From a virus: DNA of 30,280 nucleotides. The stretch spans positions 1-30,280 of IMG/VR virus record IMGVR_UViG_3300006875_000094; one strand, written 5' to 3'. Below are positions 3,071 to 28,103 of the stretch, one piece after another. The notes under the pieces are model-generated. The model saw only the letters and a list, made by a program, of their open reading frames with translations. It was not told where the DNA came from and did no database searches. Both the position numbers and the translations under genes were made by a program. Positions within the stretch are counted from its first letter, which is position 1. Every line of letters starts with the position of its first letter.

Positions 3071-3098
3071 ACCCTAACACGACCGGTACAAAAGTAAA
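3071..3098 (-). promoter_or_regulatory. Candidate promoter for gene 43
   Basis: On the minus strand TTTACT (3098-3093) is followed by 16 nt and TAGGGT (3076-3071). The spacer contains ACCGGTCGTG, an identical decamer also present in the spacer of the CobT-like gene promoter (10972-10981). Only 7 nt separate the -10 box from the ATG. It sits immediately downstream of the hsp20 terminator, as expected for a promoter that restarts transcription. Confidence 0.6.
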
Positions 3099-5980: not shown

Positions 5981-6015
5981 AAAAAAGAAGGCGCGTTCTT
6001 TACAGACTACGCGCC
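5981..6015 (-). terminator. Rho-independent terminator before the dsbA/44/62/regA group
   Basis: On the minus strand a 7-bp perfect GC stem, GGCGCGT paired with ACGCGCC, has a 12-nt loop and is followed by TTCTTTTTT. It lies 26 nt after the stop of the 94-aa gene. A TCCGATCGGA palindrome lies just before the stem. Confidence 0.8.
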
Positions 6016-6041
6016 AAAAGTCCGATCGGATTTGCTATCCG

Positions 6042-6326
6042 TTAGCTCTGTGGAAGAGCGGCGCCTGGAACGGTTTCAACACCGCCGGCTGGAGCGGCTG
6101 CTCCACCCTGCTGATCCTTCGGGGTATTAGCCTTCAGGAACTCGACGAAACGAGTACGGAGCGTGCCGATTGCGGAGAGCTCAGGACCCTCGAATGCTCC
6201 GCGTTTGGAGCATACGTCGATCATTTGAACCACTGCGGCCAGATCGTTAAGACCGAGCTGCGGAGGTGTGTTGGTTTGACCCGCTTCAGGAGCGGTAGCG
6301 TTGGTTGTATCTGCTTGGTTTTCCAT
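6042..6326 (-). CDS. Conserved small protein of unknown function, 94 aa
   Basis: Low-complexity N-terminus (MENQADTTNATAPEAGQTNT), a folded helical core (LNDLAAVVQMIDVCSKRGAFEG, then ELSAIGTLRTRFVEFLKAN), and a Gly/Ala/Pro-rich tail. The core pattern, with the GAF turn between two helices, recalls a small protein I have seen near clamp genes in marine T4-like phages; no function is known to me. It follows gene 45 after 30 nt and is followed by a terminator, so it is the last gene of that transcript. The position suggests a role beside the clamp, but this is inference from neighbourhood only. Confidence 0.75.
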   Translation of the reverse strand: MENQADTTNATAPEAGQTNTPPQLGLNDLAAVVQMIDVCSKRGAFEGPELSAIGTLRTRFVEFLKANTPKDQQGGAAAPAGGVETVPGAALPQS

Positions 6327-6356
6327 GTTGTGTTGTACCTAGGTTTGTTCGACTTC

Positions 6357-7028
6357 TTAGGAACCGAACGTCGACTCTTTTTCAAGAGCGATCCAGTATT
6401 CAACTGGAATACTGGTGTTCTTGAAGTGGCTGATCAATTTAGAACTGAACGAGACCACGTAATCACCCGTCATCATTTTTAGGTGGCTGATGGGTATGAT
6501 GAGCGAGAAGACCTTGGTGCAAGCATTCTTCTCGTCCACCACAATCGTGTATTTATTCGAACTCTTGTCCTTCGGATTGACAATGTTCGCTGAAATCCTA
6601 CCATTTTTGCCCTCGAGTTGGATCGAGCTGTGGCCTAACACAGATGCCGCCTTCTTCAGGCGATTCATAGAATCTGACGTCAGATTTAGAACTACCTCAG
6701 GCGCTGGCATAGACACTCTCCTCGTAGGTACCGTGAGGGTGTCGAGGGCTGCATACCGGTATTCGATGGATGTGTTGCCATCACGAATTGTGACCGATGT
6801 CTTTCCGAACTCAAGCTGAGGTTGATCAACTAGCGTGAGGATAGATAGGAACTCGTTCAGATCGTAGATGCCAAATTCTTGTGGCATCACCTCTGCGATT
6901 TTTGCAGATCCCATCATGGTCTTTGCGTCCGAGACCGTATCCACGATGGATCCCTGCTTGAACAGCAGATTTGGGTTGATGGCCGCGAAGTTTTTGAGGA
7001 TCTCGATTGTGTTTTGTGAGAGTACCAT
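6357..7028 (-). CDS. 45: Sliding clamp, DNA polymerase processivity factor (T4 gp45-like)
   Basis: Trimeric ring that tethers gp43 to DNA and, in T4, also activates late transcription through gp33 and gp55. It is 223 aa (T4: 228). It begins MVLSQNTIEILKNFAAINPN, matching the T4 pattern (KLSKDTTALLKNFATIN). Other shared points are FGIYDLNEFLSILTLV (T4 VAIYDLNGFLGILSLV), the SLIIPISHLKMMTGDY strand and the ending YWIALEKES. The start has no Shine-Dalgarno sequence. A 12-bp perfect inverted repeat stands just upstream, within the leader. In T4 the gene 45 initiation region is a RegA target, and a RegA homologue is encoded nearby. Confidence 0.95.
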   Translation of the reverse strand: MVLSQNTIEILKNFAAINPNLLFKQGSIVDTVSDAKTMMGSAKIAEVMPQEFGIYDLNEFLSILTLVDQPQLEFGKTSVTIRDGNTSIEYRYAALDTLTVPTRRVSMPAPEVVLNLTSDSMNRLKKAASVLGHSSIQLEGKNGRISANIVNPKDKSSNKYTIVVDEKNACTKVFSLIIPISHLKMMTGDYVVSFSSKLISHFKNTSIPVEYWIALEKESTFGS

Positions 7029-7043
7029 GATGGATAAAAGTGG

Positions 7044-7075
7044 ATTGGCTGTAGGATTTTTGCCCTACAGCCAAT
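7044..7075 (-). repeat. 12-bp perfect inverted repeat in the leader of gene 45
   Basis: ATTGGCTGTAGG and CCTACAGCCAAT are separated by 8 nt, between the winged-helix gene stop and the gene 45 ATG (15 nt away). There is no strong T tract after it (CCACTTTTATCC), so it is more likely an mRNA hairpin for processing, stability or translational control, or a weak attenuator, than a full terminator. Confidence 0.7.
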
Positions 7076-7090
7076 GTTGTAGCCTAGAAC

Positions 7091-7330
7091 TTAGCGGAGG
7101 TTCTGAGCGCTACGAGCGGTGTCATAGCGGTACTTGAAGATACGGCGACCGGTCTTCTTGTCCTTATGACGGTTGGTCCAGATGACGTGACCCTCGTCAC
7201 GGAGCTGCGCAACGACTGCCGAAGGATTGGCAATCGCGAGGCGGCGCTCGAGCTCAGTGATGGTGAACTCCTTGCCGTTAGCAAGGAACTTGATCATACG
7301 CGTCTTCTGGTTTGTGTTGGTCTTAGCCAT
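7091..7330 (-). CDS. Small winged-helix DNA-binding protein
   Basis: 79 aa with a clear helix-turn-helix layout: RMIKFLANGKEFTITELERR (helix 1 and start of helix 2), LAIANPSAVVAQLRDEGH (recognition helix), then a wing VIWTNRHKDKKTGRRIFKYR. Basic residues line the wing. Similar small wHTH proteins occur in marine T4-like phages; they are presumed transcriptional or replication regulators, with no defined role that I know of. The gene has its own promoter-like element and two inverted repeats upstream, and precedes gene 45 by 62 nt. It could therefore regulate itself and the clamp. Function is inferred from fold and position. Confidence 0.8.
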   Translation of the reverse strand: MAKTNTNQKTRMIKFLANGKEFTITELERRLAIANPSAVVAQLRDEGHVIWTNRHKDKKTGRRIFKYRYDTARSAQNLR

Positions 7331-7365
7331 GGTATTATGTTTTCAATGATCCATCTTTGTTTTAA

Positions 7366-7396
7366 GTTGCATGGTGCGGATCACTCACCATGCAAC
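7366..7396 (-). repeat. 11-bp perfect inverted repeat at the expected start of the winged-helix transcript
   Basis: GTTGCATGGTG and CACCATGCAAC are separated by 9 nt. The repeat begins 1 nt after the TAGGAT -10 box at 7398, so it covers the predicted transcription start. It could be an operator for the downstream winged-helix protein or a 5' mRNA hairpin. No T tract long enough for an efficient terminator follows (TTAAAACAAAG). Confidence 0.7.
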
Positions 7397-7397
7397 G

Positions 7398-7425
7398 ATC
7401 CTAAACTGTTTCCTGTTTTTGTAAA
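7398..7425 (-). promoter_or_regulatory. Candidate promoter for the winged-helix/gene 45 group
   Basis: On the minus strand TTTACA (7425-7420), 16 nt, TAGGAT (7403-7398), with the same hexamers and spacing as the CobT-like gene promoter. An 8-bp inverted repeat, TCCTGTTT/AAACAGGA (7411-7430, 4-nt loop), overlaps the -35 box and could act as a second operator or as the end signal of the AAA+ gene transcript. The leader to ATG 7330 is about 60 nt. Confidence 0.55.
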
Positions 7426-7441
7426 CAGGATTTGCTGGGAA

Positions 7442-8617
7442 TTAGAAGGAGGCTGCGTTTGCTGCCTCCGCGGTAACCGGAGCATCAGCCGGAGTTACTG
7501 ACGGTTCGCGAACCGGCTGAACCATCGGATCGATCTTCGTGTAAAGATCCAAGAACGCAGTTTTGGTATCGAGATCGAAGCGACTGATGCACATCTGAAC
7601 AGCCTTGAGGCGATCCTCGAAGATCTTGTAGGAATGGGCGATGTGGCAGAGACGTCGGGTCGAGATGACCTCGTCAACGCCATCATCGGCAAAGGTCTTG
7701 CGAATGACCTCTGCCCACGTGCAGAGCTTCTCAGCGAAGTCCTCGTCACGGCGGCCGTACTTCTCCATGTGGCGGAGGACAATCTTCTTCTCCGTGGCGA
7801 ATGCGGCGTAAGGCTGCTCGATGGTGGCCACAAACCGCTCGAGGAACGCCTCGTCGATAATGGTGGCTGCCACAAATCGGCCATCGTCAGAGCCCTTGCC
7901 CTTTGTGTTGGCCGTCGCGATAACATTGAACCCCGGAGACGGATGAATCACTTCACCGGTCTTCTTAATCAAAACAGGCTTGCCCTCAAGAACACCCTGC
8001 AAGCACATGATTTTGTTGGTCGCTCGATCGATCTCATCGACGAGTAAGATGGCGCCTCGTTCCATGGCCTTGATGACCGGACCTTTGGCAAACACCGTAT
8101 CGCCATTGAGAAGTCGGAAACCACCGATGAGGTCGTCTTCGTCTGTCTCCGGGGAAATTTGGACTCGGATGTACTCGCGGCCGAGAGAGGCACAGGCTTG
8201 TTCGACCATCATGGTCTTGCCATTGCCAGAGAGGCCAGCGATATAGATCGGATAGAAAGTTTTGGCCTTGATGATCTGGGCCACGTCAGAGTAGGCACCC
8301 CATGGTACGTAGGTCTCGTCCTGCGAAGGGACGTACGAGTCCTCGTTGATTGTCGAGGAGATCGCAGCCGAAAGCTTCATGACAGGAGTTGCAGCGACCG
8401 GCTTTTGAGGAAGCGGCTCCGTGGACTTCTTGATGACTCGAGTGAGGTCGTAAAGGCCACGAGAAACCTTGAACTCGTCGCCGATGAGTTCGGCTGCACC
8501 CTTGAAACCGAAGCCGAGCTCTACGGCTACGTCATCGATCTGCTTACGGCGGAACTGAACTTGGTCAGGGTACTTCTCGGACAGGACCGAGATAATCTTG
8601 AGGGATGTGTCTTTCAT
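7442..8617 (-). CDS. cobS: MoxR/CobS-type AAA+ ATPase
   Basis: 391 aa. A small N-terminal domain (residues 1-60, basic and possibly winged-helix) and a linker precede one AAA+ module. Walker A GLSGNGKT is at 128-135, Walker B LLVDEID at 191-197, sensor 1 VIATANT near 233, arginine finger LERF near 259-262, and sensor 2 STRR near 319. The order and spacing are those of the MoxR group (CobS, NorQ, CbbQ, GvpN), which remodel VWA-domain partners. CobS with CobT forms the AAA+ part of aerobic cobalt chelatase for B12. Phage homologues are usually named cobS, but that role is unproven, and the large chelatase subunit CobN is not in this window. The CobT-like gene lies directly upstream, which supports a MoxR-VWA pair. 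The Pro/Ala-rich C-terminal tail after residue 365 is probably flexible. Confidence 0.9.
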   Translation of the reverse strand: MKDTSLKIISVLSEKYPDQVQFRRKQIDDVAVELGFGFKGAAELIGDEFKVSRGLYDLTRVIKKSTEPLPQKPVAATPVMKLSAAISSTINEDSYVPSQDETYVPWGAYSDVAQIIKAKTFYPIYIAGLSGNGKTMMVEQACASLGREYIRVQISPETDEDDLIGGFRLLNGDTVFAKGPVIKAMERGAILLVDEIDRATNKIMCLQGVLEGKPVLIKKTGEVIHPSPGFNVIATANTKGKGSDDGRFVAATIIDEAFLERFVATIEQPYAAFATEKKIVLRHMEKYGRRDEDFAEKLCTWAEVIRKTFADDGVDEVISTRRLCHIAHSYKIFEDRLKAVQMCISRFDLDTKTAFLDLYTKIDPMVQPVREPSVTPADAPVTAEAANAASF

Positions 8618-8714
8618 GATCTAAGAAGAAATCAAACTACGCAGACATTCTACACTATTTCGCGGCTCTCGTACACAGATTTGTTGCGGTATAAGTTGTT
8701 GGTGTTCTAACCAC

Positions 8715-10958
8715 TTAGGCAACAGCCTCTGAGAACTTCGTCACGAAGATGCGATTGCCCTTCTTAGAGGCAGAGAAATTCTTGAACTGGCGAGCGATCT
8801 TGCTGCGCGTCATGTCAGGCGTGATCTCTAGCTCCTCGTCCTCGATGTCGAGGTCATTGCCAGATCCCACGATGAAGAAGCTGTCGTAGCCATAGGCACC
8901 AGGAAGAGAGAGGAAACCATCTTCCTTGTAGGACTGCTCGTACTTCGGCATCAGCGTGTTCCAGTTCTTCATACGGCGGATGGCTGCAGCGATCGTGTTG
9001 TTGAGCACCCAGCGGCCGGCAGGGATAAAGAAGCCCATCGTATCACAGCCGGTCGTGATCTTAAGGTTCTCGAGCAGCTTTTCGGTCATATTACCATGGT
9101 CCGCAGTGAGGACTCGACCGTGGATCTTGAACGAGGTCTTGGCATAGAGCTGATAGCCAAGAACACTAGGAGAACCGACTCGGTTGTCAAACCTCACATT
9201 GGATAGACCGACGCGGAGAGGATTACCGGCACCGTCGGTCAGGAAGATCGCGGTGACCTTGTCAAAGTTGTGCTGAGCACGGAAATCCTTGATGATATCG
9301 TGAGCGATCACGATCGTCTCGTTGAGAGGAGTACTGCCAAGTGTCTCGACACCAGACTTGCAGGAATCGTTCTGCGCGCGGAGCCACATGCTATAGATGG
9401 CATCATTGAACTCCGTCTTGCTAAGATCAGAGTTGACCAGATCGAGGAGAATCGTATTGGAAACGAGGACTTTATCCGTACCGCCACCGATGACCGTAGC
9501 GTACTCGACCGACTTGTTTCGCTGCGAAATGTCACTCGTGAATCCATACACCTTGAAGGGGATACCGGCCTGACGGCAGAAGAGAGCCATGTTGATGAGG
9601 TGCTTCAGGACAGAGGGAAGCACCCGAGCCATCGAGCCAGAGTAGTCCACGAACATCACCATTCCATGATTCTTGGCGTTGGCCAGCTTGGTGACGCTGA
9701 GGAACACATCATCGCTCGTACGATAGGCATGCAGGCGATTGAGGTCGAGCGAACCAGTCTTGGACGTCGTGGCTCGAGAATACTGATGGGCAGACTTACG
9801 GAGGTCAAACTCCTTGACCATCATACCGATGACCTTCCGATTGGCCTTGAGGAAGTCGTTGAACCTCTCGCGGGCCACGGGGTTGTTAAAAGACTCGGAG
9901 AAATAAACGCTCCGCATACGGCGAGTCTTAAGCTCATCGTAGGGCATGATGTTCTCCATGCACTCGGCGCGCGTCGGGGCCTTGGCGAAGCAGGTCTGAA
10001 GGGTCTCCTTCGATTTGTCCAGAAGCTTCTCAGCGTTGAGATCGAAGCTGCGCTGAGTTGAGACATCCAGATTCGTATCCGGATTGGCGAAGTCGGTAGG
10101 CTTGTCCGTGCTGCTAGAAGTACCTTCCTGCTCGGTTTTCTCGGCCGTGTCCTTGGCGCCACTTGCGTCCTGAGGATCAGGCTTCTCAGACGTCTGCTCG
10201 CCTTTCTCGTCAGAATCATTCTGCATCGAGTCGCCCTTCTTGTCATCAGACGAAGAATCGTCCGAGTCATCCTCCGCGGAGGTCTCTGCGGTATCCTTGG
10301 AGGAATCCGAGCTCTGCTCCTGCTGGCTAGACTGTTCGCCTTCGCTCTCCTCGCGGCCATCCTGAGACTGGGGCTGCGGGGGCTGAGGAATCTGTGGCTC
10401 CTGCTGTTTAGCGGCAGCCTCTTTGACGAACTTCTCGAGATCGAGGGCGGCCTGAACGACCTCATCCCACGTCTGAGCAGCTTCGATCTGCGCTTTGATC
10501 TTGAGCTCGTCGGGGCTAAAGTAAATGTCGATCAGATTCCGAAGCTTGAATTTGATGTTGAGGCGGTCAGGAAGATTGAGCTTGCCAGTACCGGTCTTGT
10601 TGATGCCAAAGAAGTCGGCGGCAGCAAGGTCAGCATAGCCTCGAGCGAAGCAGGAGATCAGGCCAGGATACTGGTTTTGGATCATCCGCTCGATGCGAAC
10701 ATCCTCGACGAGATTGATGTAATCCTGCCGAGCACCCCGCATATCCTTGTGGAAGTCGGTGGGGGTGAACAGAGCGTGGCCAACCTCGTGGCCGACGAGC
10801 AGATCGTAGACGTCTTTGCCCTTGTTCTGCCAGATGGGGAGGCCAAGGGTGCGGGACTCCACGTCAAAGAAGGCGGTCTGAAAGTTGCCGTGCTGGATCG
10901 TGATGTTCTCCTTCGAGAGCAGTCGGGCCAGCGTGCCCTGTGCAGTGGAATTCATCAT
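8715..10958 (-). CDS. cobT: CobT-like protein: HExxH metalloprotease-like domain fused to a VWA domain
   Basis: 747 aa. The N-terminal domain has the zinc-protease motif HEVGHALF at residues 57-64 and NLVEDVRIER at 82-91, where E85 could supply a third metal ligand as in gluzincins. Residues 185-290 are a highly acidic Ser/Gln/Glu/Asp linker. The C-terminal VWA domain has an intact MIDAS site: DYSGS at 438-442, the threonine of GSTPLNE near 543, and the aspartate of LTDGAGN near 575. The layout (acidic linker plus C-terminal VWA) is that of CobT, but the intact HExxH suggests peptidase or metal-binding activity. It ends 97 nt before the MoxR/CobS-type ATPase gene, its likely partner. A promoter-like element ends 6 nt before the ATG pair at 10958/10955, which predicts a leaderless or very short leader. 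Called CobT-like by architecture; its biological role is unknown. Confidence 0.88.
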   Translation of the reverse strand: MMNSTAQGTLARLLSKENITIQHGNFQTAFFDVESRTLGLPIWQNKGKDVYDLLVGHEVGHALFTPTDFHKDMRGARQDYINLVEDVRIERMIQNQYPGLISCFARGYADLAAADFFGINKTGTGKLNLPDRLNIKFKLRNLIDIYFSPDELKIKAQIEAAQTWDEVVQAALDLEKFVKEAAAKQQEPQIPQPPQPQSQDGREESEGEQSSQQEQSSDSSKDTAETSAEDDSDDSSSDDKKGDSMQNDSDEKGEQTSEKPDPQDASGAKDTAEKTEQEGTSSSTDKPTDFANPDTNLDVSTQRSFDLNAEKLLDKSKETLQTCFAKAPTRAECMENIMPYDELKTRRMRSVYFSESFNNPVARERFNDFLKANRKVIGMMVKEFDLRKSAHQYSRATTSKTGSLDLNRLHAYRTSDDVFLSVTKLANAKNHGMVMFVDYSGSMARVLPSVLKHLINMALFCRQAGIPFKVYGFTSDISQRNKSVEYATVIGGGTDKVLVSNTILLDLVNSDLSKTEFNDAIYSMWLRAQNDSCKSGVETLGSTPLNETIVIAHDIIKDFRAQHNFDKVTAIFLTDGAGNPLRVGLSNVRFDNRVGSPSVLGYQLYAKTSFKIHGRVLTADHGNMTEKLLENLKITTGCDTMGFFIPAGRWVLNNTIAAAIRRMKNWNTLMPKYEQSYKEDGFLSLPGAYGYDSFFIVGSGNDLDIEDEELEITPDMTRSKIARQFKNFSASKKGNRIFVTKFSEAVA

Positions 10959-10964
10959 GACAGA

Positions 10965-10992
10965 ATCCTAGCACGACCGGTGCTGGTGTAAA
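10965..10992 (-). promoter_or_regulatory. Candidate promoter for the CobT-like/AAA+ pair
   Basis: On the minus strand TTTACA (10992-10987), 16 nt, TAGGAT (10970-10965), then 6 nt to the ATG at 10958. The spacer contains ACCGGTCGTG, identical to the decamer in the gene 43 promoter. This recurrence in two unlinked places makes chance unlikely. Confidence 0.62.
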
Positions 10993-11043: not shown

Positions 11044-12762
11044 TTATTTTTGTTTGATCTGCGAGAAGTTTTTGACCTTCTCAAACTCGATTTTGTTCGG
11101 GAACTTGCTGTCCAGAGCATCGGTCTTGTGAGAGATGATGAAGACTGAGGTACCGGCATCTAGGGTCTTCAGGATCTTCATGAGGTTCTCCACACCATCG
11201 GCATCCATCGAGGAATCAAAGGTCTCGTCTAGAACCAGCAGGTTCGTGCTCACCGAGTTCTTCATCTTGGCAATCTGACGCCACGTGAAAAGAAGAGCAA
11301 GGTCGATTCGCTGCTTCTCTCCCTCAGAGAAAGATGGATACGAGAAGTCATCGCGGTAGCGAGACTTGATCGTCTCCTCGAACGCTTCGTCCAGGTTGAA
11401 CGAGACAAAGAAGTCGAGAGTCTGCAGGTACTGGTTGATGAGCTTGTTCATCACCGGCAAGTACTGGCGAATGATCTTCGTCTTGATGCCGGTATCCTTC
11501 AGCATCTCGGACATTGCTTGGTTGTAGGCGCCTTGCTCGTAGTAGATTGATTTCTGCGTGGACAGATTTTCCTTCAGGTCCAGGAGTTCCTCGAGTTTCT
11601 TCTCGGCCTCCTCGAGGCTGGCGTCTTTCATCTCTGCATTTTCCTGCTGGAACTCTGAGATGTATTTGGTATGAAGTTGAATCTGAGAACGGTTAGTCCG
11701 AATGAGCTGTTGGATTTCGTCCAGACGGTTCATCGTGGTAGAGATCTCTCCAAGAGAATCTTCGACCTTCTTCAGTTCTTCTGCGAGTTTTGCCTGACCA
11801 TCGGTCAATTCTCTGGCAGATTCTTTGCAGGCATGAAGCTTCTCGGCTTTAAATGTAGGAACAAGCATCTGCGAGCATGTGGGGCAGTTATCGTGGTTTT
11901 CGTAGAACTTTGCATCCTTAACCACCCTCTGCATGTTCGACTTGATCTGGGCCTGATAGGACAGCAGGGCCTGTCTCTTTTCCTCGGTCTTCTTCAGCGA
12001 AGAACGTATGTCGTTTGGAACTCGATCGGCCTCTGCCTGAAGCTCTTCGTTTTTGGCCTGAAGTTGCTGAACGATTTGAGTGTGTTCCTCAATCTTCTTC
12101 AGATTCTTCTTGACGTTATCGGCATTGCGATGTTTGATCTCATCGATGAACTTGTGTTGCATCGAGATCGTACGGTCATTGACATCGGCCTCATGAGCAG
12201 TTGCTCCTAGCTTGTCCCGAAGCTGTGCAGACTTCTCTTTGAGGATCGTGTTCATCTTCGTGAACACATTGATGTCCAGCAGATCCTCGATCACTTCTCG
12301 CCGGTGCTGAGCCGGAAGCTGCATGAACGGGATGAAGGACGAGGATCCGAGAACCACGATCTGATGGAAGGACTTGTGGTTGAGCTTGAGTATATTCTGC
12401 TCCAGAACCTTCTGGTAGTCCATCGCATGCGATTCCTGGTTCACCATCTTCCCATTCTGCCAGATCTCAAAGATGCTGGGTTTGATTCCACGTCGAACTA
12501 GAAACTCTGTTTTTCCTACAGTAAACGCAACCTCGACTTCACAGTTCTTTCCATTGATCGAGTTCACGAGCTGTGGCTTGTTGATGTCTCGATGTGGCTT
12601 TCCGAAGAGAGCGAACGAGAGAGCATCAAGCATCGTGGACTTACCTGCCCCGTTTGGTCCGACCACTAGAGTGGACGAACGGTTGTCCAGGTTTATCTCG
12701 GTAAAGTCATCCCCCGTGGAGAGGAAGTTCTTCCACTTAATATGACGAAATGTAATTGCCAT
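11044..12762 (-). CDS. 46: Recombination endonuclease subunit, Rad50-like (T4 gp46)
   Basis: SMC-type ATPase that with gp47 resects DNA ends for recombination-dependent replication and host DNA degradation. It is 572 aa (T4: 560). Walker A GPNGAGKS is at residues 35-42. Two long coiled-coil arms flank a zinc hook (DNCPTCSQM, CxxC) in the middle. The ABC signature FSEGEKQRIDLALLF and Walker B LLVLDETFDSSMD are near the C-terminus, followed by an ISHK switch. It begins 3 nt after the gene 47 stop (12766), with AAGG before the ATG, so the two are made together. Confidence 0.96.
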   Translation of the reverse strand: MAITFRHIKWKNFLSTGDDFTEINLDNRSSTLVVGPNGAGKSTMLDALSFALFGKPHRDINKPQLVNSINGKNCEVEVAFTVGKTEFLVRRGIKPSIFEIWQNGKMVNQESHAMDYQKVLEQNILKLNHKSFHQIVVLGSSSFIPFMQLPAQHRREVIEDLLDINVFTKMNTILKEKSAQLRDKLGATAHEADVNDRTISMQHKFIDEIKHRNADNVKKNLKKIEEHTQIVQQLQAKNEELQAEADRVPNDIRSSLKKTEEKRQALLSYQAQIKSNMQRVVKDAKFYENHDNCPTCSQMLVPTFKAEKLHACKESARELTDGQAKLAEELKKVEDSLGEISTTMNRLDEIQQLIRTNRSQIQLHTKYISEFQQENAEMKDASLEEAEKKLEELLDLKENLSTQKSIYYEQGAYNQAMSEMLKDTGIKTKIIRQYLPVMNKLINQYLQTLDFFVSFNLDEAFEETIKSRYRDDFSYPSFSEGEKQRIDLALLFTWRQIAKMKNSVSTNLLVLDETFDSSMDADGVENLMKILKTLDAGTSVFIISHKTDALDSKFPNKIEFEKVKNFSQIKQK

Positions 12763-14966: not shown

Positions 14967-16492
14967 TGAATTGGTACCTCGTGGATCTTAAATGTGAATT
15001 TCTCTGAGCCGTACAGTTTGATTCTCTCGGCAGCGTGGTTCAGCGTGTAATTTCTATGTTTCTTCCAGTGAAGATCATCAGCGATGTCAAACACCTTTGT
15101 GGGTCTTCCATCATCTGATTTTCTGAGGCCTCTGCCGATTGACTGAAGTATTCTTATTTGAGATTTGGATGGTGACGCGAAGATGATGTTGTGCAGGTTT
15201 CTGATATTTATACCGGTGGAAAACGTACCCATGGATGCCACAATGATCGCATCCTTCTCCTTCTCAGTGATGGCACGGATTCTTTCACGCTCATCGGTTT
15301 CAACGTCACCAGAAACGAAGAACAGTTGACGAGTCCTACGAGGGAGTTCGTTGAGCTTCTCGTCGATCATCTGGTACAACGGTTTGCCATGTTTCTCCAC
15401 GTAGTTGTACAGGATCAGGGTATTTCCATCCTGAGCCATAGCGAGATTTCGAATGAACTTATTTCTTCCCTGGTGACCTATGATAAAGTCGATCTCCTGC
15501 TGGTAATCGTATTTCTTTGTGTCCTGACAAACCAGATCGGAATACTTCATGAGCAGAACATCGATCGAGAGTTGTGCCAGAGCATTCGAATCCATCAGCT
15601 CCTTCGTGGTCGTGACACGGTGAACTGGGCCAAACAATCCCTCGAGAACTAATTTATGAGTCTGTGTGCCATCCAAGGTTCCGGTCGTACCGATACGGTA
15701 CTTGGCATCCCGTAACTTTTCCATGATGGAACTCAACGATTTTGCCTTGAACGTGTGTGCCTCGTCTCCCACGACCATTCCGTATGGTTCGAACCACCGA
15801 GCATCCATCTTGTAGATGGACTGCCAGGTCGTAATGACCACACGAGAGTTGATATCCATCTTTTCTTTGCCGGAGTAGATTCGATGGCACTCCGTCTCAT
15901 TGTCCCAGCTCTCGTCCAGAGTTGAATAGTCCTTGAAGTCGGTGAACATCTGTTCGACCAGGGACGTTGTCGGGACGATGAGCAAAACCTTTTTAGATGG
16001 ATTCTCCTCCAGGAAATACCGGATCAGGCAGTAGATGATGAGCGATTTACCGGATGCTGTAGGACTGAGCAGAAGAGAACGGTAATGAACCAGCGCGTGA
16101 TGAATCGCCTCGAGCTGGTAGTCTCGGGGCTCGATCGCTTTTCCGTTAGCATAAAGCTGTAAGGTATCCGTAAAGGTCTTGACAGCATCCAGATCTAGAT
16201 ACGCCTGGGCATCGGCTCTTCCGTAGTAATCAGAATCGACGTGCTCGAGCGTGCAACCACGAACCTCTGCAAATTCATCGAGGTATGGTATCAGGCCCCC
16301 GTACAGCGTCTTGGCTCGAGAATCGAACAAACGGATCTTGCCATCCCAGAACTTGTTCTTGTAGGCCGGCATGAACTTTGCCCCTGGGACCATAAATGTA
16401 AAAAAATCTGTTAATTCATATGCAGTAGATGGTTCGCATTCGATGGTTACAAACACTTCATTCTTCTTTTTAACTTTGAGAATTTCAGACAT
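14963..16492 (-). CDS. uvsW: UvsW-like ATP-dependent DNA/RNA helicase
   Basis: SF2 helicase that in T4 unwinds branched recombination intermediates and R-loops, shutting off origin replication; 509 aa (T4 UvsW about 500). The N-terminal domain (1-100) carries aromatic and basic patches for DNA binding. PRDYQLEAIHH is the Q-like motif near 122. Walker A PTASGKS is at 144-150, motif II GDEAH near 242, motif III GTTGTL near 268, and motif VI QSIGRGLRKS near 448. The 5' end overlaps the homing endonuclease stop by 8 nt. In T4 it is a late gene. A perfect TATAAATA lies inside it (15205-15212), but at a coding position (TGINIRN) that could be chance. Confidence 0.95.
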   Translation of the reverse strand: MSEILKVKKKNEVFVTIECEPSTAYELTDFFTFMVPGAKFMPAYKNKFWDGKIRLFDSRAKTLYGGLIPYLDEFAEVRGCTLEHVDSDYYGRADAQAYLDLDAVKTFTDTLQLYANGKAIEPRDYQLEAIHHALVHYRSLLLSPTASGKSLIIYCLIRYFLEENPSKKVLLIVPTTSLVEQMFTDFKDYSTLDESWDNETECHRIYSGKEKMDINSRVVITTWQSIYKMDARWFEPYGMVVGDEAHTFKAKSLSSIMEKLRDAKYRIGTTGTLDGTQTHKLVLEGLFGPVHRVTTTKELMDSNALAQLSIDVLLMKYSDLVCQDTKKYDYQQEIDFIIGHQGRNKFIRNLAMAQDGNTLILYNYVEKHGKPLYQMIDEKLNELPRRTRQLFFVSGDVETDERERIRAITEKEKDAIIVASMGTFSTGINIRNLHNIIFASPSKSQIRILQSIGRGLRKSDDGRPTKVFDIADDLHWKKHRNYTLNHAAERIKLYGSEKFTFKIHEVPIQ

Positions 16493-17069
16493 GTTTGGTG
16501 GCTTTTCCAGATTTTACCCATGATGATATTGTTGAAGGAGCCACGCCCAATAATTTAGCGGCTTCTCTTCCAGACGAATACGTGACACCATCTATCGTGA
16601 CGCTTTTAGATATGGCTTTAGCTTTTTTCTGCTTGTGTTCTTTAGATTGCTTGGTTCCCAATACTGCTAGTCTAGCAGCTTCAGTCGCCCCGGTTTTAAC
16701 AAAGTTTATTCCCTTGCGTTTTAGCGTCTCGCTTATTTTTTTCTTACGTTCTTCTGTCACAGGTCTTCCCGCTCCACTTCCGCCGTAGGAATAATTATAT
16801 CCGTGCCCGTCATAGGCATGGGAATTTTGCTGCCTGATATGGAATTCTTCCAGAACACGAAGTGTATACTCCTGATCATTGCTCTCTTCTAGGATTTGCC
16901 AATCGAAGGCATCCTTGCCGTATTTTGCAATTGCTCTGTGGAAGTGCCACTGCGGATCACGCTCGGCTTCCCACAGATGCTGGTTTTTTCTACGTTCAAA
17001 ATTATCAGTGTAGCCAACATATTTCTTTCCGTTAATCCGATTGGTTGCGCAGTAAATGAAGAAGGGCAT
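16485..17069 (-). CDS. GIY-YIG homing endonuclease with NUMOD-type DNA-binding repeats
   Basis: 194 aa free-standing homing endonuclease. The nuclease domain has FIYC (in place of GIY) at 4-7, KYVGYT at 16-21, catalytic-type arginines in FERRKN (26-27) and a glutamate in LEEFHI (74-75), ending GYNYSYGG. A NUMOD3-like segment follows (GRPVTEERKKKISETLKR). Then comes a NUMOD1/IENR1-like helix-turn-helix (TIDGVTYSSGREAAKLLGVA). It separates uvsY from uvsW, genes that are close neighbours in T4. Its DNA looks richer in A/T than the flanking genes, which fits recent entry. TATAAATA ends 5 nt before its ATG at 17069. No intron boundaries are visible, so it probably targets an intergenic or adjacent gene site in related phages. 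Confidence 0.9.
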   Translation of the reverse strand: MPFFIYCATNRINGKKYVGYTDNFERRKNQHLWEAERDPQWHFHRAIAKYGKDAFDWQILEESNDQEYTLRVLEEFHIRQQNSHAYDGHGYNYSYGGSGAGRPVTEERKKKISETLKRKGINFVKTGATEAARLAVLGTKQSKEHKQKKAKAISKSVTIDGVTYSSGREAAKLLGVAPSTISSWVKSGKATKHV

Positions 17070-17074
17070 AAGTG

Positions 17075-17082
17075 TATTTATA
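17075..17082 (-). promoter_or_regulatory. Late promoter-like TATAAATA before the homing endonuclease
   Basis: Perfect match to the T4 late consensus on the minus strand, ending 5 nt before the ATG at 17069. The predicted transcription start therefore falls on the start codon. Late-only expression is typical of free-standing T4 homing endonucleases. Confidence 0.6.
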
Positions 17083-26065: not shown

Positions 26066-26073
26066 TATTTATA
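26066..26073 (-). promoter_or_regulatory. Late promoter-like TATAAATA upstream of gene 18
   Basis: Perfect consensus on the minus strand in the 87-nt gap between genes 17 and 18. The site is nearly palindromic, so TATAAATA also reads on the plus strand at 26070-26077, but no gene follows on that strand. The leader to ATG 26002 would be about 58 nt. Confidence 0.65.
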
Positions 26074-26089: not shown

Positions 26090-27715
26090 CTAATAGGTCG
26101 AACTTTCCCAAACGTTTCCATCCGAGTCAACGAATCGGCCTTCATCCTCGGTATTTTTCTCAAGATTCCCGAGTATTCCCACAGGAGCCACATCTTCCTC
26201 CACCAGGCGCAATCTCTCATTGTATAACATGTCGCGGATATCCATGCTCGACATGTTCACGAAGATGTCGGTCGCCACGAACCAGGCAAATACCACGAGT
26301 GCCATGACCGTATCGTCGTGATTACCCTCGGCGGCCTCATAGGATGATCCGACCGCCTCAAATGTACTGAGCTCCTGGATCGTATCGGCATCCGGAATGA
26401 TCAGCTTCTTTCCCTCGATCAGATCCTTCAGATTGGAACAACCGATCCGCTTCGTCTTCTTGGTGGTGGTCAGACCGATCGATCCGTTCTTGACCGCCGA
26501 CTCCACGAACATATTCTCGTATTCTAGGTCGTAATACAGGCCATTGCACACCACCGATCCCTGGTCGTTGCTCTCCACGATGATGTATGCCTTATTGTAG
26601 GTCTTAGCATACTTGTAGATCGTATCAGGGAAAATGAGTGGAGACACAAGGGCATCACGATAGGTGGCCACAACCTTGAATGGGCGGGCAGTCACGTCAA
26701 CGATAGAGAAGGTAGAGAAGTCCTGGTTGCGTCCCTTGGCCACATCAACCGCCATCACGTAGTTGTGATCTGATATCGGTTTCTCATACACCTTGACCCC
26801 ATTCTGTGTATAGATTGGATTCTCGGCCTTGAGTGATAGCAAGGTCTCGGCATTGATCAGTGTGTTTCCGGTACCATGAAACGAATTTCCGAACTCTTGC
26901 TGGAACTGCAGCTCAGAGGTATTGGCCACCGTCTGGCGCTTCCATTCCTCGTCTCGACCCGGTACATCCCACCAGTCGACTCGGAATGGCTTGAACTCAT
27001 TGATGCCCTGAACGGCTCCCTCCCAGATCTTATGAAACTGGTTGCCGACGCCATTGGCCGTCGATGTGATGATGACTCGAGAGGTCTTACCCGATGAAAC
27101 GACGGGATAGGTCGAGGTATAGAAAGTCGTGGCATTCTCGACGAAGGCAAACTCGTCCATGAACAACAGGTTGACCGAGAGACCGCGGATCGAACTGCCG
27201 GACGTGGCGGCCGCAATGATTCGAGAGTTATTCGAGAACTCGATGGATCCCTTGTTGAGAGCTCGGCAACCGGGTTGCAGGAAGAACGGTAGATTCTCCA
27301 GCGCCAGGGTTACGCGCGCCAGCATCTCTCGGGCGGTGGCCGCTTTATTGGCCAGGATCGCGATCGTCTTGTCGGGCTGGAAGAGTGCAAACCAGAGCAG
27401 GTAGATGACCGATGAGATCGACTTACCTGACTGACGGCAGGCCAGAACGATGGAGAATCGGTGAGTGTTAAAATGCTCGAACATCTTTCCCTGATAGGGA
27501 TACGGCTCAAACGCCACCAGGCCTCGGTCCAGAGAAATCACTTTCACGTAGGTCCGGGCAAAATACTCCGGATCCTTCATACACTTCAGGTATTCCGAGA
27601 CCTCGATCTCGGTGAATTTCTGCTGGACTCCGTCTCGCTTGACGCTCGGGTTGCCTAGATACCCAAGTTCAGCGTTCTTGACGAACATCCCTTGGTTGTT
27701 CTGCGGCGGCGACAT
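26090..27715 (-). CDS. 17: Terminase large subunit, packaging ATPase-nuclease (T4 gp17-like)
   Basis: DNA packaging motor, 541 aa (T4: 610). The ATPase domain has Walker A CRQSGKS at 93-99, Walker B LLFMDE at 183-188, and the coupling motif ITSTANG near 217. The RNase H-like nuclease triad is D324 (AVDVAKG), E381 (IIVESND) and D467/D468 (NHDDTV). The start at ATG 27715 is supported by AAAGGA 5 nt upstream, although it overlaps gene 16 by 47 nt. The C-terminal tail after about residue 500 is acidic. It acts with gp16 at the gp20 portal. Confidence 0.97.
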   Translation of the reverse strand: MSPPQNNQGMFVKNAELGYLGNPSVKRDGVQQKFTEIEVSEYLKCMKDPEYFARTYVKVISLDRGLVAFEPYPYQGKMFEHFNTHRFSIVLACRQSGKSISSVIYLLWFALFQPDKTIAILANKAATAREMLARVTLALENLPFFLQPGCRALNKGSIEFSNNSRIIAAATSGSSIRGLSVNLLFMDEFAFVENATTFYTSTYPVVSSGKTSRVIITSTANGVGNQFHKIWEGAVQGINEFKPFRVDWWDVPGRDEEWKRQTVANTSELQFQQEFGNSFHGTGNTLINAETLLSLKAENPIYTQNGVKVYEKPISDHNYVMAVDVAKGRNQDFSTFSIVDVTARPFKVVATYRDALVSPLIFPDTIYKYAKTYNKAYIIVESNDQGSVVCNGLYYDLEYENMFVESAVKNGSIGLTTTKKTKRIGCSNLKDLIEGKKLIIPDADTIQELSTFEAVGSSYEAAEGNHDDTVMALVVFAWFVATDIFVNMSSMDIRDMLYNERLRLVEEDVAPVGILGNLEKNTEDEGRFVDSDGNVWESSTY

Positions 27716-28103
27716 TTTGTTCCTTTAGCTGAGAGATGAGGTGCTTCTGAAGATCCGTAGTGGAACCCAGAAACAAGTTATTCTGAGTCAGAGACGGTTT
27801 TTCTGATTGTACTTTTTCGTCTTTCTTCTGTATATCTTTCTTGGCCTTCTGCAACGCCATCAGCTTGTCAGTCATGTCTGATGTGTTCTTCAGCATGTTA
27901 CTGAGTACCTCAAAGGCACGCGGATGCTCTGACTGCATGGCCAGACTCAACATCTGTTCGATCGCCTCGTTCGACTTACTGACCAGGTTACGATACGTCT
28001 CTCGAGAGAACTCGTAGTCGTCCTGAACATGGTCAGACGGGGGAACAGGAACCTCTGGTAGGTTCTCCTCCAGTCTCTTTATCATCTCTTTTGATTTGTC
28101 CAT
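27669..28103 (-). CDS. 16: Terminase small subunit (T4 gp16-like)
   Basis: Regulatory subunit that recognises DNA and stimulates gp17; 144 aa (T4: 164). It has an acidic/proline N-terminus, then a central helical hairpin, YRNLVSKSNEAIEQMLSLA and PRAFEVLSNMLKNTSDMTDK, which forms the oligomer core in the family. A KKDIQKKDEK basic segment and a NNLFLGSTTDLQKHL motif follow. Position before gene 17 and the overlap with it support the call. Confidence 0.9.
   Translation of the reverse strand: MDKSKEMIKRLEENLPEVPVPPSDHVQDDYEFSRETYRNLVSKSNEAIEQMLSLAMQSEHPRAFEVLSNMLKNTSDMTDKLMALQKAKKDIQKKDEKVQSEKPSLTQNNLFLGSTTDLQKHLISQLKEQNVAAAEQPRDVRQER

Follow-up and report, generated by a model that had tools for sequence, protein, structure and literature searches.

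What is the function of the two adjacent genes that are known in cyanophages as cobST, or as 'peptidase' and 'CobS'? We have examined one copy of them in the virus record IMGVR_UViG_3300006875_000094, a stretch of 30,280 bases analyzed over its whole length (the window). Between gp46 and gp45 of this T4-like virus, two intact open reading frames (ORFs) on the minus strand code for a metallopeptidase-like/VWA (von Willebrand factor A) protein of 747 residues (8715-10958) and a MoxR-type AAA+ ATPase of 391 residues (7442-8617), with 97 bases between them. The first matches PHROG 459 ('peptidase', E 1e-170) and the second PHROG 249 ('porphyrin biosynthesis'/CobS-like, E 2.8e-110), so that both correspond strongly to the cyanophage 'peptidase' and 'cobS' (PMC3037559, PMC8651126). 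Print has read these as B12 genes: cobS is treated as a cobalamin gene (PMC2984593, PMC5083919, PMC8651126) and the cyanophage cobT is stated to have been 'mistakenly annotated as a peptidase'.

The tests presented here do not support that assignment. Contrary to print, the pair is by these tests not CobST and not an ordinary cobaltochelatase. It is very probably a MoxR-VWA pair equipped with a metalloprotease-type domain. Whether the two genes encode a single AAA+/metalloprotease machine, predicted to remodel or clip replication-recombination proteins, we regard as an evenly balanced question. The basis for it is the motifs at both active sites, the folds of the VWA and AAA+ parts, a gene pairing that recurs and the position among replication and recombination genes. 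A client within replication or recombination complexes is predicted with a little less assurance than that. A pair of this kind has already been described in T4-like jumbo phages; new here are a direct comparison with CobS/CobT by several tests and the connection with recombination modules of conjugative elements. In the titles and abstract openings searched, the cyanophage pair was not found described as a MoxR-vWA-metalloprotease system.

Motifs and folds of the two proteins

The first-pass annotation had reported a HEVGHALF motif, an acidic linker and an intact metal ion-dependent adhesion site (MIDAS) in the 747-residue protein, and all three are there. HEVGHALF occupies residues 57-64 and is followed by N82, E85, D86 and R88. 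Its HEVGH part (residues 57-61, 10776-10790, minus strand) is a predicted metal site, and N82-x-x-E85-D86 (10701-10715, minus strand) would supply the third metal ligand, E85, with its support residues, roles that we take over from the gluzincins. We compared 82 distinct full-length VWA sequences, the window included, most of them only 27-36% identical to the window protein; partial ORFs and exact duplicates had been dropped beforehand, as also for the 65 ATPases below. H57, E58, H61, N82, E85, D86 and R88 are invariant in all 82, which completes the gluzincin-type signature of HExxH plus a downstream glutamate. Most of these sequences came from a scan in which NxxEDxRI was one of two patterns and HExxH was not, so the count for NxxED is partly circular and that for HExxH is not. 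By composition, 0.012 HExxH would be expected per protein. The MIDAS motif DYSGSM (residues 438-443, 9630-9647, minus strand) is equally well kept, with D438, S440, S442, T543 and D575 invariant in the same 82.

The structural models (AlphaFold2, AF2) were built from window and viral-contig proteins and reached a mean predicted local distance difference test (pLDDT) of 73.6 for the VWA protein and 85.3 for the ATPase. Residues 188-293 (10080-10397, minus strand), acidic and rich in serine, have pLDDT below 50, as befits a flexible linker. The N-domain is modelled with three short strands (20-23, 30-32, 37-40), a helix at 48-64 that bears HExxH and another at 78-96 that bears NxxED, in blocks with pLDDT of 76-94. 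This would be the layout expected of a gluzincin. The VWA domain (residues ~428-747, 8718-9677, minus strand) aligned best by VIA-align with that of NorD (Z 16.5, rmsd 5.3, 259 aligned) and with the human MDN1 MIDAS domain (Z 15.2, rmsd 3.0, 214 aligned; MDN1/Rea1 MIDAS domains Z 13.7-15.2), while other VWA domains trailed at Z 12-13. The viral structure library returned VWA proteins of many phages.

The AAA+ module, claimed as intact in the first-pass annotation, has Walker A GLSGNGKT (residues 128-135, 8213-8236) and Walker B ILLVDE (residues 190-195, 8033-8050), both on the minus strand. In 65 of 65 distinct ATPases (window included) there is no change at the Walker A lysine, D194/E195, R261, R306, R321 or R322, the four arginines presumably acting as arginine finger and sensor 2; T135 was the sole checked position to vary (T in 63, S in two). 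The AAA_5 family is matched with E 1.3e-20 (74.2 bits over a cut-off of 22) and CbbQ_C with 24.8 bits (cut-off 20.6), and the partner proper to MoxR-type ATPases of the CbbQ/NorQ/CobS branch, a VWA co-chaperone with MIDAS, is encoded beside it. The nearest folds are CbbQ (Z 25.3, rmsd 2.3, 261 aligned) and NorQ (Z 23.7, rmsd 2.4, 250 aligned); beyond the chains of these two, the values drop to Z 16.4. By sequence, the CobS of known structure is near (E 5.4e-18), but it is absent among the fold matches listed, so that fold cannot decide between the sister families CbbQ/NorQ and CobS. The AAA+ part of MDN1 was matched by phmmer over four stretches (E 4e-45). The N-terminal ~62 residues (8432-8617, minus strand) form a small domain, ordered helix-strand-helix-helix-strand-strand in the model, which may be winged-helix-like to judge from this order alone. 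It matched no significant family, the top PDB matches being designed repeat proteins and the Pfam ones weak and scattered, and the ATPase of Ochrobactrum phage OC is without it.

The best structural matches of the pair are NorD for the VWA part and CbbQ plus NorQ for the ATPase. NO reductase is the client of NorQ-NorD and Rubisco that of CbbQO; the match to NorD is to its VWA part. Midasin (MDN1/Rea1) has the same succession of AAA+ ring, acidic linker and MIDAS domain, but is one giant eukaryotic protein without a protease domain. From these parallels we would picture one machine made of a MoxR/NorQ-type AAA+ ring and a VWA co-chaperone, the latter carrying a zincin-type metallopeptidase domain on the flexible acidic linker of ~105 residues. 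By analogy with NorQ-NorD and midasin, the VWA domain would dock on the ring, the MIDAS metal would grip an acidic residue of the client and ATP turnover would pull the client apart, after which the tethered protease may clip it. Gene context would place the client in nucleoprotein complexes of replication or recombination, whether it belongs to the phage or the host or is a protein stuck on DNA.

Replication and recombination neighbourhoods

The location inside a replication module, noticed at first pass, is confirmed, with gp46/gp47 on one side and gp45/gp44 on the other. The minus-strand order is gp55, gp47, gp46, the VWA gene, the ATPase gene, a gene for a 79-residue HTH_39 protein, gp45, gp44, the clamp-loader A subunit (gp62), RegA, Hsp20 and gp43, with small ORFs interspersed. 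The immediate neighbours, all on the minus strand, are the SbcC-like recombination nuclease subunit gp46 (11044-12762, PHROG 77), the winged-helix HTH_39 protein between ATPase and clamp (7091-7330, PF14090 with 31.1 bits, cut-off 21.3) and the sliding clamp gp45 (6357-7028, PHROG 223).

The pair had also been called an unusual investment, which is not supported: it is common in this phage group, present in hundreds of cyanophages and already named. Of 50,697 phage records searched by tblastn, 463 contain the VWA protein and 554 the ATPase, a figure that also takes in remoter AAA_5 ATPases of other phages. Each list contains, by name, 365 Synechococcus, 61 'Cyanophage' and 24 Prochlorococcus records, that is 450 cyanophage records per gene. 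Both genes were found too in the pelagiphages Mosig and HTVC008M, in Stenotrophomonas phage DLP6 and in Ochrobactrum phage OC. In Syn9 the pair is gp150/gp153. Published work lists cobS as one of 25 cyanophage core genes (PMC3037559) and calls cobST core in cyanophages (PMC8651126). In the fetched loci the two genes share a strand; the gap between them has a median of 105 bases and does not exceed 600 in 70 of 79. Where enough flank was available, gp46/gp47 were found upstream of the pair in 49 of 61 loci and gp45/gp44 downstream in 29 of 41. In two of the 41 loci with more than 5 kb downstream (L025 and L072) the VWA gene has no ATPase gene within ~6 kb downstream, and L025 has gp55 and gp47 downstream of the VWA gene instead of upstream.

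Other phages have pairs, annotated CobT/CobS or 'porphyrin biosynthesis', among genes of the same kind. In nickie and SSU5 these are primase, ligase and polymerase genes. In RHEph10 the pair is found among ligase, polymerase and SSB genes, in ICP2 among primase, helicase and polymerase genes, and in DLP6 after the polymerase, UvsX and helicase genes. In Thermus phage P74-26, DnaB and a Holliday junction resolvase are encoded close to one VWA and one AAA_5 gene. An exception is CRP-810, with the pair near the record end, by an endonuclease V gene and an integrase. The HExxH motif is present in SSU5, RHEph10, CRP-810, Bacteroides phage BS162P1, ICP2 and HVTV-1. VWA partners without it are encoded at 5983-8067 of nickie and 26358-28049 (minus strand) of P74-26; these are perhaps natural protease-dead versions of the phage pair. 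In the halovirus HVTV-1 an annotated SprT-like gene (31534-32250, minus strand) lies 2-4 kb from the VWA and AAA_5 genes and may code for another protease of the HExxH type next to this machine.

Related modules are found in bacterial mobile elements. Their VWA family has an N-domain homologous to the phage one (hhalign 99.7%, E 4e-26, spanning HExxH and NxxED), and HExxH is kept in 17 of 18 bacterial genome loci and in both plasmid loci. Its usual neighbours are a MoxR ATPase and a DUF3150 protein. Conjugative plasmids of Providencia and of Marinobacter salarius (pHL2708Z5) carry ssb, recT, an exonuclease gene, the ATPase, DUF3150 (PF11348, E 7e-67) and VWA genes in this order. A Salmonella island has the ATPase, an unnamed gene, SSB, RecT, a YqaJ exonuclease-type gene, DUF3150 and VWA, the last five confirmed by Pfam. 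After weak or piecewise VWA matches had been dropped or merged, 24 VWA places remained. A RecT gene was on the same contig and strand within 15 kb of the VWA gene in 17 of these places and in 13 of the 18 genomes, against 0.115 expected. The 18 bacterial proteins fall into nine clusters at 60% identity and six of these hold a RecT-linked genome, so the linkage is seen in several lineages. Among 72,556 plasmid records, 1,386 have a match to the Salmonella island VWA protein, and in 848 the match spans 80% or more of that protein. The mobile-element module is thus like the phage pair in N-domain, motifs, MoxR partner and recombination neighbours, and differs by its DUF3150 gene and, in the plasmids, by the order ATPase-DUF3150-VWA, whereas the window pair has just the 97 bases between its two genes. 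DUF3150 genes were seen at loci L132, L133, L139 and most of L115-L131; this usual third gene of the module was not found in the literature searched.

Expression signals were compared within the window. A promoter type common to the pair and gp43 had been proposed; the shared element is real and may be a promoter or an operator. The window has exactly two copies of a 28-base pattern, TTTAC-N6-ACCGGTCGTGYTAGGRT, one just before gp43 and the other just before the VWA gene, and 100 shuffles have none. The copy before the VWA gene (10965-10992, minus strand) has the form TTTAC-N6-ACCGGTCGTGCTAGGAT and matches exactly that of gp43 (3071-3098); the conserved core is ACCGGTCGTG. The element reads TTTACN-16-TAGGRT, with AGGR placed 7-8 bases before the ATG. 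Since its last bases are at the ribosome-binding-site position in both genes, it may be a translational operator overlapping that site, or else a phage-specific promoter class. A promoter-like TTTACA-16-TAGGAT is found before the HTH_39 gene (7425-7398). Sigma-70-like sites are not in excess across the region (nine, against 9.3 in shuffles). The minus strand has four TATAAATA sites, which we take to be the T4 late promoter consensus, at 15212, 17082, 22037 and 26073, none of them near the pair, and there is one on the plus strand at 26070. Together, the element shared with gp43 and the position of the TATAAATA sites suggest that the VWA gene may be regulated with gp43 rather than with the late genes. 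The transcriptome literature searched (PMC7238727, PMC5082946, PMC12753301) does not mention the pair in the excerpts seen.

Candidate functions

Several of our observations weigh against a tethered protease that acts on replication and recombination proteins. The PDB fold matches listed for the 747-residue model are all VWA matches, aligned within residues 322-747, so that a zincin fold of the N-domain is a prediction. HExxH is missing from the nickie 'cobT', from the P74-26 VWA protein and from one of the 18 bacterial loci (L119), so that the protease is not always needed. The gene neighbourhood is weak evidence in phages because the whole block is inherited together, and even so the expected neighbour is absent upstream in 12 of 61 loci and downstream in 12 of 41. 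Among the 18 bacterial genomes, RecT is lacking in three and lies on a different contig in two, and what the VWA gene shares with gp43 could be a signal for translation instead of a promoter. In the integrative and conjugative element (ICE) SXT, deletions of bet, exo, s067, s068 and s070 are reported to cut transfer 10-fold or less (PMC2791158); by gene order, s067-s070 would include the module.

Taking all this together, we put forward a broader proposal only tentatively. One ancient machine, a MoxR ring with a VWA-tethered metalloprotease, might serve the recombination and replication apparatus of tailed phages of bacteria and archaea, of conjugative plasmids and of genomic islands by dismantling or clipping DNA-bound proteins, with CobT as a relative whose protease domain is dead and the cyanophage 'cobS' as the motor. 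If cobS is the motor of a protein-remodelling protease, the claims of viral B12 metabolism that rest on cobS and on viral 'cobT' need revision. Such a role of cobS would further point to a function for a core gene pair that is very widespread in ocean viruses and unexplained, and would add a candidate partner to the recombination systems of phages and plasmids.

MoxR-VWA pairs are general assembly chaperones, and the pair could be a chaperone plus protease that assembles and processes structural proteins of the virion. Such a role has been proposed for the MoxR-vWA-metallopeptidase pair that jumbo phages of group 2.2 carry (the cyanophages being group 2.1), by analogy with Acidianus two-tailed virus, for whose tail a MoxR-vWA pair is reported (PMC7824862). 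As in the window, these T4-like phages have a MoxR gene and a vWA protein with N-terminal metallopeptidase domain; the comparison (ASV44728/ASV44729) is with the published description only, and there architecture and pairing agree. However, our pair is located in the replication block, has its element in common with gp43, and the minus-strand TATAAATA sites are elsewhere. P74-26 likewise has its annotated VWA and AAA genes in the replication block of the minus strand, away from the structural genes, which are on the plus strand. Besides, relatives are found in conjugative plasmids, which make no virion. We consider virion assembly unlikely.

Host take-over or counter-defence would have the same machine dismantle a host or defence complex, for instance a nuclease attacking recombining DNA ends. 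Conservation in very different mobile elements, adjoining recombination genes, would fit. Yet the strong conservation and the recurrent order with replication genes suggest a core role over one in an arms race, and we judge this function improbable. Against it, and against the pair being itself a defence system, no convincing family match was found: at E<=0.1 the single PADLOC match of the ATPase was PDC-S27 (E 0.034), and the VWA protein had none.

Maturation of a metal centre appears very unlikely. Here the pair would activate a phage or host metalloenzyme as NorQD does, and the HExxH domain would handle the metal without cutting. The nearest folds, NorQ/NorD and CbbQ, and the homology with CobT via the plasmid/ICE family are in its favor, but no constant metalloenzyme neighbour was noticed in the annotated loci inspected, and the invariant HExxH with its glutamate is a protease signature. 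The machine acting on replication and recombination proteins is the reading that we prefer to these three.

Comparison with CobS, CobT and CobN

The ATPase is homologous to CobS and both share the AAA+ superfamily, but it fell far short of the CobS equivalog TIGR01650 (61.7 bits against a cut-off of 558.55, E 6e-17). In a maximum-likelihood tree of 68 ATPases (every fourth phage ATPase, the window and the named phages L006-L011 making up the phage sample), 23 phage sequences separate from the rest with supports of 100/98 and 20 CobS with 100/99; the tree has several long branches and an arbitrary root. The CRP-810 ATPase, which has a long branch, groups beside CobS, so that some few of the phage pairs may stand closer to CobST.

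The window VWA protein did not match the CobT families PF06213 and PF11775 at E<=1, although these do match the plasmid/ICE relatives and some phage ones. To have a reference set of CobT, we read the protein from all 56 genomes matched by PF06213: 55 of 76 from the class of a Robiginitomaculum bin, which we take to be the Alphaproteobacteria, and a Rhodobacteraceae bin. None of the 56 (two of them fragments) has HExxH in the CobT domain, as compared with 82 of 82 for the phage type. The sole HExxH was HEPAH in an upstream extension of L162, for which this CobT was left out of alignment A6. NxxED is commonly replaced in CobT, for example by xxxEQARxE. The plasmid/ICE VWA family aligned with CobT over most of its length (hhalign 99.6%, E 1.2e-24), HEAAH standing opposite AYALR. 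A direct profile link between the phage protein and CobT was tried and discarded, as hhalign (85.8%) aligned only part of the VWA domain. The N-domain link to CobT therefore runs via the plasmid/ICE family, and CobT as a protease-dead relative is a conclusion in two steps. On sequence grounds the phage VWA protein would be a homolog of CobT and not a member of its family.

No CobN had been seen in the window at first pass, and this holds for longer records as well: PF02514 (CobN/ChlH) was absent from nine of nine phage records carrying the pair, some of which may be incomplete. A PF02514 protein of Prochlorococcus, which we took for CobN on account of its length, matched two of the 50,697 phage records, both unannotated (OQ572414.1, 16877-19957, and MT837301.1, 2222-5122). 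A class I ribonucleotide reductase (RNR) small subunit is encoded in eight of the nine records, and with class I their own RNR should not need B12. Among Prochlorococcus-genus genomes, 57 of 61 have PF02514 proteins and none of the 61 has CobT, so a CobN partner could exist in those hosts. The published idea that phages hijack CobN was put forward for such hosts (PMC8651126). SAR11, the host of two pelagiphages with the pair, is called a B12 auxotroph (PMC9296465). The first-pass annotation had considered remodelling at least as likely as B12 synthesis, and that judgement comes out strengthened by the wide miss of the CobS cut-off, the unmatched CobT families, the CobT without HExxH and the nine records without CobN. 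For all the homology with CobS, the CobT matches of the plasmid/ICE relatives and the CobN that could be available in Prochlorococcus, we disfavor as most improbable that a phage CobST drives the host CobN to produce more B12 for nucleotide synthesis.

Two minor observations can be added. One of the 56 CobT, L191, keeps NALEDARIE in a protein without HExxH, and its N-domain may stand midway between the protease type and the CobT type. Elsewhere in the window, directly downstream of the TATAAATA site at 17075-17082, is a gene for a GIY-YIG homing endonuclease with an I-TevI-type DNA-binding domain (16485-17069, minus strand; PF01541, PF20987).

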